Position numbers and translations under genes: made by a program. Source: Lachnospiraceae bacterium (GTDB taxonomy: Bacteria; Bacillota; Clostridia; Lachnospirales; Lachnospiraceae). From it: a stretch of 64,000 nucleotides of DNA. The notes beneath the pieces were generated by a model that saw only the letters and a list, made by a program, of their open reading frames with translations, was not told the origin of the DNA and searched no databases. The stretch covers positions 1-64,000 of the forward strand of contig JAILHF010000023.1 of NCBI GenBank assembly GCA_024696005.1. The letters are read 5' to 3'. The first letter of the stretch is position 1; each line of letters begins with the position of its first letter. Below, piece by piece: positions 59,345 to 62,388 of this stretch.

Positions 59345-59372
59345 TGTAAGATTTAGCGGAAAAAGTTGTCTG
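59345..59372 (+). promoter_or_regulatory. Candidate ECF-type promoter of the sigma-serpin operon
   Basis: TGTAAG (59345-59350), 16 bases, TGTCTG (59367-59372). The AAx-rich -35 and GTC-type -10 resemble ECF promoters, suggesting autoregulation. GGGAGG follows before the ATG at 59397. Confidence 0.4.
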
Positions 59373-59396
59373 TTATGGTGAAGGGAGGACCTGAAA

Positions 59397-59957
59397 ATGA
59401 ATGACGAACAGATAGTCCGGCTGTACTGGGAGCGGGACGAGCAGGCCATCAGGGAATCAAGCACCAAGTATGGGGCGTACTGCTCCGCCATAGCCGGCAG
59501 GATCCTGGACAACAGCGAAGACGCCCGGGAATGTGTCAACGATACCTGGCTTCAGGCCTGGAACTGCATCCCGCCGAACAAGCCGACCCTGCTCTCCGTT
59601 TTTCTGGGCCGGATCACGAGAAACCTGTCTTTCAACAGGTACAAAAAAACGCACAGTGAAAAACGCGGAGGGGGCAACATCGATCTGATCCTTGACGAAC
59701 TCGAGGAATGCCTGTCCGGAAACGATACACCGGAAGACGAACTGCTGCGCAACGAACTGAAAGAGGATATCAACCGCTTTCTCGCATCGCTGCCGGAAGA
59801 AAAAAGATACATGTTCATACGCCGCTACTGGCATGCCGATACCATAACGGAGATCGCCGGGCGCTTCGGCATGAGCGCCAACAACGTATCCGTAACGCTT
59901 GGGCGCGTGCGTGCAGCGCTAAAGTCACACCTGACGGAAAGGGGGTACCGGTTATGA
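59397..59957 (+). CDS. ECF-type RNA polymerase sigma factor
   Basis: 186 aa. Region 2 (about 5-85) has EDARECVNDTWLQAWNCIPPNKP and the -10-recognising helix; region 4 (about 120-180) has LPEEKRYMFIRRYWHADTITEIAGRFGMSANNVSVTLGRVR-type sequence. No extra domain. It overlaps the serpin-fusion gene by four bases (ATGA), the usual place for an anti-sigma factor. Confidence 0.9.
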   Translation: MNDEQIVRLYWERDEQAIRESSTKYGAYCSAIAGRILDNSEDARECVNDTWLQAWNCIPPNKPTLLSVFLGRITRNLSFNRYKKTHSEKRGGGNIDLILDELEECLSGNDTPEDELLRNELKEDINRFLASLPEEKRYMFIRRYWHADTITEIAGRFGMSANNVSVTLGRVRAALKSHLTERGYRL

Positions 59958-61417
59958 GATCGGAAGATTTATTTGAAGCAATGGGTGATATCGATGAGAA
60001 AGAAATAGAGGCAGCGGATAACTACCGCCCGAAAAAGAAAGCGCCGCTGAAATGGGTCCTGCCCGCCGCCTGCGCCGCGGCGGCCGTTCTCCTGCTTCTG
60101 ATCGGCATTCCGCTGATCCGGAATGCACAGAAAAACCCCAACGTACCCAATACTCCGGGCAACGAAGAAGGGAGCTATGAATTGAAGGTCCTTAGTGCAG
60201 AATATCCGGAAGCCGTCGGCGGAAACCTGAGCGCCGAAGAATACATGACCGACGATGCCCGCTGGGACTGGCTCGATGAACAGCAGAAAAACTACGACGC
60301 ATCAGCCGCCCTGCAGAAAGACATGGAAAACTGCTACCTTTCTTTAATGGCACAGATCCTGGCATCCGATGAAGAAAACACCGTCTGTTCCCCGCTCAAC
60401 GCCTATATGGCCTTTGCGATGCTGGCCGAAACGGCAGACGGCAACACCAGGAAACAGATCCTGGATACGCTCGGCGTCCCCGACATTAAGACCCTGCGCA
60501 AAAATACACACGCTCTGTGGAGCAGCAACTACGCAGACACTCCGGTGCTCAAGAGCCTGCTCGCGAACTCCGTCTGGCTGAACGCCGCGGAAAATTATAA
60601 CGAAGATACGCTGAAGACACTTGCCCACGAGTATTACGCTTCCTCGTACAGGGGTGTTCCGGGCTCGGATGAAATGAATGCCGCGCTTCAGGACTGGACG
60701 AACAAAAATACCGGCGGTCTTCTGAAAGATTACGTCAAAGACCTGAAGCTCGAACCGGATACCGTCCTTGCGCTGGTATCGACGATCTATTACAAAGCTA
60801 CCTGGCTCAACGATTTTAATAAAGACGAGAATACCAGAGAAACGTTTCACGGGGTAAAGGGTGATACGACCGTGGACATGATGCACAACAGCGACTGCAG
60901 CGAACTCTTTGAGAGCGATCGTTTCACCGCACTCAGCCTGGGCTTGAACGACAGCGGATCCATGCATTTCTTCCTTCCGAAGGATGGCGTTGACATCAAT
61001 TCGCTCGCATCGGACCCGGATGTGCTGAAAGCGATATCCACCGAAGACGACGCCCGCCGTTCATATCCGATGGTAAACATGTCGATCCCCGCATTTAAGG
61101 TTTCGTGCAAAACTGACCTTCTGGACACCATGAGCGCTCTGGGCATGACCGATGCCCTGGATCCCGGCCGGGCAGACTTTTCGCCCCTGAAACCGGATGC
61201 CGCCGGGCTTTACGTCAGCGCTGCGGAACATGCCGCATTTGTGGAGATCGACGAGCAGGGCGTGACCGGTGCCGCCTATACGGAGATCGCCATGACCAAG
61301 GGTGCGTTCTTTTCGGATGATCCGGTCGATTTTGTTCTCGATCGTCCGTTCCTGTTCATCATAAGCGGAAGCGACGGTTCCGTGCTCTTTTCCGGGATCG
61401 TGAGAAACATCGACTGA
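59954..61417 (+). CDS. Membrane-anchored serpin with anti-sigma-like N-terminus
   Basis: 487 aa. A short acidic cytoplasmic part (1-30, MRSEDLFEAMGDIDEKEI) precedes one transmembrane helix (about 33-55), a linker, and an extracellular serpin domain (about 100-487). Serpin landmarks: CSPLNAYMAFAMLAETADGNT, the hinge EIDEQGVTGAAYTE, and RPFLFII near the C-terminus. The reactive loop is about four residues longer than in alpha-1-antitrypsin, so P1 is uncertain (Met, Lys, Gly or Phe in the AMTKGAFF stretch). Position and N-terminus suggest control of the sigma factor; this is inference. Confidence 0.85.
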   Translation: MRSEDLFEAMGDIDEKEIEAADNYRPKKKAPLKWVLPAACAAAAVLLLLIGIPLIRNAQKNPNVPNTPGNEEGSYELKVLSAEYPEAVGGNLSAEEYMTDDARWDWLDEQQKNYDASAALQKDMENCYLSLMAQILASDEENTVCSPLNAYMAFAMLAETADGNTRKQILDTLGVPDIKTLRKNTHALWSSNYADTPVLKSLLANSVWLNAAENYNEDTLKTLAHEYYASSYRGVPGSDEMNAALQDWTNKNTGGLLKDYVKDLKLEPDTVLALVSTIYYKATWLNDFNKDENTRETFHGVKGDTTVDMMHNSDCSELFESDRFTALSLGLNDSGSMHFFLPKDGVDINSLASDPDVLKAISTEDDARRSYPMVNMSIPAFKVSCKTDLLDTMSALGMTDALDPGRADFSPLKPDAAGLYVSAAEHAAFVEIDEQGVTGAAYTEIAMTKGAFFSDDPVDFVLDRPFLFIISGSDGSVLFSGIVRNID

Positions 61418-61442
61418 GCGGCAAAGCTGCCGTGAATAATAC

Positions 61443-61473
61443 CGGCGCCCCCGGGCCAAGCCCGGGGGCGCCG
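61443..61473. terminator. Very strong bidirectional hairpin
   Basis: CGGCGCCCCCGGG, loop CCAAG, CCCGGGGGCGCCG: 13 perfect G-C pairs between convergent genes. T-runs are weak on both sides (CTTCACTTC one way, TATTATT the other). Confidence 0.7.
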
Positions 61474-61488
61474 CTGCTTCACTTCATT

Positions 61489-62388
61489 TCAAAACAGATC
61501 GAGCATGCTGTCCAGATAGATCTCTTCCCTCACTTTAAGCCGGCATTCCGGCTTTGTCATGTAGTACAGCAGGATCTCCAGCATCACCGCGCTGCCCAGG
61601 CTGCGCCCTTCCAGCTTAAAATGCGAAAAGCCCATCGGCTGATATACCTTCCGGATGTCTTCGGTCCCGATAAATCCCGGATTCTCCATTGCCGCGGAAA
61701 ATCGGTAACCCTTCTGCGCATCGGGTGAAACACAGACATGATCCTCGTGATCCGCCCCGAGAGCCTTCAGGCACACATTCTCATAACACTTCTTCCTTGC
61801 CGCACAGTCGAAAGCACAGCATTCGTTGCAGAGAAATTCAGCCTTTCGCTTCAGTGCTTTGTCAAGAGCGTCCAGTTTACCCAGTTCTTTGTTCAGCCGG
61901 AAATCCGGAACAACATAGGAAAACTCTTCCCGCCGCAATTCCGCTTCAAAACTTTCGAACTCCGTCAAAACCTTCGTAGTGGAAGAAACAAAATAAAAGT
62001 CCGGGTATTCCCTCGCAAGATGATCCAGAAGCAGATCCGAGCAGATGATCACACCGTTTGGGGCAGACCCGTTCTTTTCGAACAGGGCGCAGAGCGCATT
62101 GCACTTCCGGTCCGAAAGATGTTCCTTCTCCAGAAGGGAATTGCTGAAGGTGAGACGCGCCGACAATCCGTATTCACGCATCAGTGCAGCAGCATTTTCC
62201 GGCTTCTCCTCTCCGAAGCCCGTGCGTCCGCCGCCCCAGAGGCAGTCAGCCGGCGCCCCGTAGACGGAGCCGATCCCGCACCAGTCATAAAAATACTCCC
62301 TGTGCTCTCGATAGAGCGGCAGGAAGATCCTGTAAAGCTCGTAAAATTCAAACAAGCCGGGAAGATGATAGAATACTTTCTCATTCAT
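61489..62388 (-). CDS. U32-peptidase/UbiV-like TIM-barrel protein with Cys cluster
   Basis: 299 aa. The order of motifs resembles U32-family barrels: an RLTFSNSLL strand, NGVIICSDLLLDHL, FYFVSSTTKV, VVPDFRLNKELGKLDAL, then CNECCAFDCAARKKCYENVC (about 192-211), and FKLEGRS near the C-terminus. The six closely spaced Cys could bind an Fe-S cluster, as in UbiU/UbiV and RlhA. The substrate is unknown. It overlaps the small membrane gene upstream by eight bases. Confidence 0.5.
   Translation of the reverse strand: MNEKVFYHLPGLFEFYELYRIFLPLYREHREYFYDWCGIGSVYGAPADCLWGGGRTGFGEEKPENAAALMREYGLSARLTFSNSLLEKEHLSDRKCNALCALFEKNGSAPNGVIICSDLLLDHLAREYPDFYFVSSTTKVLTEFESFEAELRREEFSYVVPDFRLNKELGKLDALDKALKRKAEFLCNECCAFDCAARKKCYENVCLKALGADHEDHVCVSPDAQKGYRFSAAMENPGFIGTEDIRKVYQPMGFSHFKLEGRSLGSAVMLEILLYYMTKPECRLKVREEIYLDSMLDLF

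Follow-up and report, generated by a model that had tools for sequence, protein, structure and literature searches.

A serpin protein of a gut-type Clostridia bacterium appears to hold an ECF sigma factor with its inner end and may let the cell sense proteases

What a serpin does beside a sigma factor gene is the question raised by positions 59,397 to 61,417 of a 64,000-nucleotide stretch of Lachnospiraceae DNA (contig JAILHF010000023.1; the whole stretch is called the window here), where the gene of an ECF sigma factor is followed, in the place of an anti-sigma gene, by that of a membrane-bound serpin. An earlier note on this DNA had proposed that the two form a signalling pair which reports proteases across the membrane. 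The coupling assumed in that proposal gained support from a shared N-terminal motif, from the recurrence of the pair, from sigma region 4, with which the N-terminus covaries, and from a relative of RsiV type that has the same N-terminus. The protein is best read as an anti-sigma receptor similar to RsiV in which the head is a serpin, and it probably senses a protease. Computation on the sequences gives good support to the anti-sigma role and also backs the identity of the partner, the homology of the N-terminus, a likely contact with region 4, a hinge compatible with loop insertion and a promoter of the operon's own; that a protease is the signal is what we infer. The features of the locus are collected in Table 1.

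Table 1. Features of the sigma-serpin locus, in window coordinates
Feature	Positions	Strand	Basis
ECF-type promoter-like site, TGTAAGAT...GTTGTCTGT	59345..59373	+	pattern searches
ECF sigma factor, 186 aa, regions 2 and 4	59397..59957	+	Pfam and NCBIfam profile matches
Anti-sigma/serpin membrane protein (anti-sigma role predicted), 487 aa, overlaps sigma stop codon (ATGA)	59954..61417	+	
Cytoplasmic motif, residues 1-24, proposed sigma-binding segment	59954..60025	+	N-terminal HMM; covariation
Membrane helix, about residues 36-55	60059..60118	+	mean hydropathy 2.51
Extracytoplasmic serpin domain, residues 129-485	60338..61408	+	PF00079; nearest structures conserpin, tengpin
Hinge and reactive centre loop, residues 434-462	61253..61339	+	conserpin alignment; hinge tally

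The first gene product has both regions of an ECF sigma factor, with Sigma70_r2, Sigma70_r4_2 and Sigma70_ECF all above the Pfam cut-off and TIGR02937 matched at 63.7 bits (cut-off 42.9). Its gene shares four nucleotides (59954-59957) with the serpin gene, the overlap that had been claimed. A longer in-frame serpin ORF from 59708 is also present in the ORF list; the ATG at 59954 was taken as the start because of this overlap with the sigma stop codon and because of the conserved N-terminus described below. The domain order given in the earlier note (acidic cytoplasmic segment, one helix, full serpin) was borne out: the N-terminus is acidic and continues into a lysine-rich stretch, the most hydrophobic 20-mer begins at residue 36, and PF00079 covers the whole serpin fold (E 1.7e-65; 222 bits, cut-off 27; profile positions 8-369 of 370). 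By the positive-inside rule, the lysine-rich stretch ahead of the helix indicates an N-in orientation. Besides Serpin, Pfam gave only a chance match for this protein, and NCBIfam gave zero matches up to E 1. A very stable GC-rich hairpin was observed at 61443-61472, between the serpin gene and the convergent downstream gene; the fold of 61425-61500 has -40.2 kcal/mol (z -6.3), with no T-run at the hairpin.

The N-terminus was compared with a motif HMM built from 30 N-termini belonging only to non-serpin partners of related sigma factors. That of the window protein scored 32.2 bits, against 7.8 for the best of 2960 shuffled decoys. The motif was then related to sigma adjacency, defined as a sigma gene whose end lies no more than 700 nt ahead of the serpin domain (sigma HMM E up to 1e-5; E up to 1e-40 in 20 of the 24 adjacent sigmas), in 148 serpin ORFs. 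These come from the flanks of the listed serpin matches other than six (G089 four times, G198, G115), and they include three short ORFs (L160, L161, L083) and one duplicate (L003/L073). Among the matches listed, a sigma gene adjoined 17 of the 19 ORFs with the motif at 10 bits or more and 7 of the 129 below (Fisher p 6e-15). In both motif-bearing exceptions (L102, L161) another serpin ORF or fragment of the same operon sits between the sigma gene and the motif serpin, and these two intervening ORFs are themselves among the seven sigma-adjacent serpins below 10 bits; of the other five, the motif can be seen by eye in L077 and L151, and L008, L089 and L155 follow other ECF types and have other N-termini. 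The operon at L102:1741-5473 consists of sigma, signal-peptide serpin and motif serpin, the middle one being a possible output serpin inside the circuit. Seen from the sigma side, the fetched loci contain 145 distinct related sigmas, and 135 of them have a motif-bearing partner next door; this set includes loci recruited through serpins and the 30 partners on which the HMM was trained. The same 4-nt overlap occurs in 106 of 143 related sigma/partner pairs.

The outer parts joined to this N-terminus are diverse. Among 104 non-serpin partners, Pfam identified DUF4179 in five, DUF3298 in three, DUF4349 in two, and leucine-rich repeats, beta propeller, RsgI_M (a single partner), PepSY and others in one or two each, with no Pfam match at E 0.001 in at least 77; the NCBIfam RsiV model matched three of the 104. 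In the partner alignment (A3), which leaves out one of 105 partner references, two members match internalin-type and one an SlrP-type leucine-rich model, observations read as repeat similarity only. One of the three RsiV matches was identified as the protein at L282:1326-2195 (minus strand), whose sigma factor is 42% identical to that of the window. Its N-terminus has the motif at 29.6 bits, and its outer part reaches 244.2 bits with the RsiV model, just under the cut-off of 250, together with a DUF3298 match and E 2.2e-33 to the solved RsiV structure 5jen. The same N-terminus combined with an RsiV-type head indicates that the serpin occupies the place of a known receptor; the head on one and the same predicted anti-sigma segment is in one case of RsiV type and in the other a serpin.

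The promoter named in the earlier note is present upstream of the sigma gene. Among 61 related sigma genes, 19 have an upstream match to a pattern set chosen after viewing, that of the window being one of them (shuffle control: mean 0.36, maximum 2 in 50 shuffles). The strict pattern has one match in the own genome, that of the operon itself (control 0), and no further regulon members rose above control, 4 further matches with up to three mismatches being obtained against 3 in the control. This fits a predicted self-regulation, with other targets not visible at that stringency.

Such a promoter also suits another account of the pair, in which the protein is an anti-sigma factor and the serpin is mainly output, an inhibitor displayed on the membrane in amounts set by the sigma loop, while some other signal acts on the linker or the membrane. 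With the operon as the sole strict promoter match of the genome, the serpin would be the visible product of the circuit, and the signal-peptide serpin placed between sigma and motif serpin in L102 is output-like; however, the same N-terminus bears other outer domains including the RsiV-type receptor, an indication that sensing belongs to the outer domain, and the serpin as mainly output is considered unlikely.

Conserpin and tengpin are the solved structures nearest to the serpin domain, and the window hinge aligns in register with that of conserpin (EEGTEAAAAT to EQGVTGAAYT), in agreement with what had been claimed for the hinge sequence. Inhibitory serpins have G at P15 and small residues at P14, P12 and P10, and the trap they form is irreversible. 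The window hinge follows this rule, judged from sequence alone. Insertion-compatible hinges were found in 32 of 32 serpins labelled coupled (a label that takes in L142, with an adjacent sigma, and L169 and L184, for which a sigma was not found) and in 147 of 164 others (p 0.08, not significant by itself). Non-inhibitory serpins are known in general, and the loop past P8 varies among the coupled serpins; both speak for an account in which the serpin fold is a conformational receptor for a non-protease ligand and loop cleavage is not the trigger. Against this stand the 32 compatible hinges, a weak argument since so many of the other serpins fit too, and this account is considered quite unlikely. 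AxA sites after the helix are not enriched (17 of 24 serpin partners, 13.1 expected), so signal peptidase as first cutter is unsupported. The own genome has one further serpin match, a probable lipoprotein with an off-rule hinge and no adjoining sigma, and a distant search of phage records gave zero matches. Also in the own genome, another ECF sigma gene followed by a membrane protein was observed (L039:2060-2923, contig C46), the end of which resembles an M23/LytM peptidase-type domain.

A contact of residues 1-30 with the sigma factor, on which the signalling proposal of the earlier note depends, was addressed by covariation. The analysis used 135 pairs of a sigma and its partner, which count as 134 effective ones at 80% identity, after leaving out 8 of 143 partners that scored less than 8 bits. 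Mutual information with APC was compared with 200 permutations and with a second null in which partners were swapped between related sigmas. Ten residue pairs exceeded the 95% null maximum, nine of them in sigma region 4, which comprises 67 of the 163 tested columns (p 0.002), and five in sigma residues 133-148 (13 columns; p 0.0006), p values that assume independent pairs and region limits chosen by the analyst. Under the neighbour-swap null, the pairs 147-7 (z 6.1), 141-13 (5.5), 137-20 (4.8), 130-17 (4.4) and 165-7 (3.8) stood, and 142-21 (2.5), 164-21 (2.1), 68-18 (1.9), 145-21 (1.1) and 128-11 (1.0) were weak.

Two of the standing pairs can be put as rules, with groupings picked after viewing. 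With a small residue at sigma 147, residue 7 of the partner is aromatic in 45 of 66 cases, as against 3 of 69 with any other residue there. With R or K at sigma 137, residue 20 of the partner is acidic in 93 of 118 cases; with other residues at 137 it is basic in 13 of 17. The window pair obeys the first rule (A147 with F7) and breaks the second (R137 with A20, E19 being adjacent). A mean-field coupling analysis of the 135 pairs placed 82-17 on top, with a contingency table that showed no clear rule, and for that reason the permutation-tested mutual information was relied on. Covariation between the N-terminus and region 4 supports the contact, and with it the anti-sigma role; what stands of the contact claim is a probable meeting with region 4, deduced from covariation, which does not prove inhibition of the sigma factor.

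Sought in other genomes, the pair recurs within the family and beyond. Serpin matches occur in 105 of 299 same-family genomes and sigma matches (E up to 1e-35) in 110, and the window-type pair was counted in 20 by a hand tally among the matches listed. In the genus a full-length match was found in 2 of 35 genomes, the other one (L211) also with an adjacent sigma; the distribution is patchy. The class survey (391 genomes, leaving out a second match in the L184 genome) extended the full-length motif serpins to three further families: L182 and L183 have a sigma gene, and for L184 none was found in the roughly 1.4 kb of DNA ahead of it. It also added a motif-serpin fragment in a fourth further family (L194). 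A phylum search (398 genomes) found the pair in L318, and serpin-headed proteins with a variant N-terminus beside a related sigma in L321-L323, all of one genus. Sigmas of other ECF types, too, are followed by serpin heads, there on other N-termini (L008, L089, L155, L192/L193, L205), and one serpin-headed protein with another N-terminus (L169) was seen with no sigma found near. The five fetched sigmas nearest to that of the window, itself included, all have serpin partners, as do 15 of 118 fetched family sigmas at 154.7 bits or more. A related-locus search with the sigma as query returned 9 loci, including L177. At L177:3467-7547 (JAFQKB010000077.1, a goat cecum Clostridia MAG) two tandem sigma-serpin pairs were observed, the second serpin being cut by the locus end.

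The earlier note had named the occurrence of homologous serpins mostly without a sigma gene as evidence against the pair, and taken literally this is what was found: a sigma gene adjoins 24 of the 148 ORFs and 124 are without a close one, among the matches listed and with less than 1 kb of upstream DNA in 11 of the 124. A lipobox-like sequence, by a loose pattern that some coupled proteins match too, is present in 81 of 111 full sigma-less serpins with enough DNA. Near relatives of the window serpin (L133, L139, L146, L158) are uncoupled, which weakens a strict rule that ties motif to coupling; L146 looks membrane-anchored yet is without the N-terminal motif. In one FastTree tree of 196 serpin domains, labelled with L142 as uncoupled despite its adjacent sigma, the motif state requires 20 changes for 24 motif tips, so the motif was gained or lost repeatedly. 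The sigma-less majority could suggest an ordinary membrane serpin beside an unrelated sigma gene, but such a chance neighbourhood has a negligible probability and is already contradicted by the recurrence of the pair and the shared N-terminus, as well as by the Fisher association and the covariation described above.

The serpin gene product would be the cognate membrane anti-sigma factor of the adjoining ECF sigma, with the short cytoplasmic N-terminus binding region 4 and keeping the sigma factor inactive, and with one membrane helix joining it to an external serpin that would be receptor and single-use trap. An extracytoplasmic protease would attack the reactive centre loop, and loop insertion and trapping would alter or destroy the outer domain. 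The anti-sigma factor would then lose its activity, probably through successive cuts of which a site-2 protease makes the last; this protease family is present, with two matches. These release steps are proposed by analogy with RsiV, which binds lysozyme, inhibits it and is then cut. The freed sigma factor would transcribe its own operon, and the spent serpin would be replaced. We infer the inhibition of the sigma, the protease as signal, the release route and the replenishment, and the model as a whole (cognate anti-sigma, region 4 binding, serpin receptor and trap, protease-triggered release, self-transcription of the operon) is judged fairly likely. To its furthest form, a self-replenishing suicide receptor in which consumption of the serpin is the signal, loop insertion frees the sigma and the serpin operon is the main target, slightly less than even credence is given; serpin conformational change would in that case control transcription. 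Gram-positive gut bacteria may detect some enzymes directly, by means of an anti-sigma receptor; if the model is true, proteases would join these enzymes, bacterial serpins would gain a signalling role, and an ECF sigma group would be recognized in which receptor heads are swapped on one short anti-sigma segment. The purpose of bacterial serpins would become testable by promoter reporter.

RsgI proteins, which serve sigma-I, offer one comparison among known systems. Clostridium thermocellum has several of these anti-sigmas, each responding to a substrate of its own and cleaved within its membrane helix, as described in excerpts of PMC12203970; unlike the window protein, RsgI senses cellulosome substrates, and the window has an ECF sigma and a serpin. 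Class I anti-sigma domains (ASDI) are four-helix cytoplasmic domains of about 100 aa (101 aa on average in excerpts of PMC7406223), and with only about 35 residues ahead of its helix the window protein falls outside this class. The same excerpts describe a first helix by which known anti-sigma classes bind sigma region 4, and the class II CnrY, partner of CnrH, as a short helical segment whose first helix meets that region (PMC7406223). The window segment is likewise short and covaries with region 4, but unlike CnrY its predicted contact with region 2 is weak (68-18 only).

Other bacterial serpins share the serpin domain. The siropins act on the human proteases neutrophil elastase and proteinase 3, and "sigma" occurs in the excerpts of that source only as a supplier name (PMC5127057); a phylogeny of serpins had already recorded prokaryotic ones that are anchored in the membrane, in a paper where the word "sigma" is absent (PMC8233489). 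Serpin, ECF and anti-sigma come together in one paper found, PMC10059941, whose excerpts treat them separately, and both serpin and sigma factor occur in PMC8953710, PMC12484212 and PMC4485178, among others. The view of the earlier note that no sigma/serpin pair had been described agrees with the open-licence literature, mostly titles and abstract starts, in which none was found; a serpin as anti-sigma outer domain is new to that extent.

The sigma-V/RsiV system of Bacillus subtilis likewise joins an ECF sigma to a membrane anti-sigma, the outer domain of which binds and inhibits an enzyme of host type, RsiV being at once anti-sigma factor, lysozyme receptor and lysozyme inhibitor that is cut, once lysozyme is bound, by signal peptidase and then by a site-2 protease (excerpts of PMC5014341 and PMC4183432). 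The window protein differs in that its outer domain is a serpin instead of DUF4163/DUF3298, with no match to RsiV (NF052658), DUF3298, DUF4163 or DUF4179, and in that its trap would be irreversible. Anti-sigma receptors whose outer domain can be exchanged, and which inhibit the ligand that they bind, are already known as a kind, and the RsiV-type protein of the window's own sigma group (L282) shares the N-terminal motif of the window protein.
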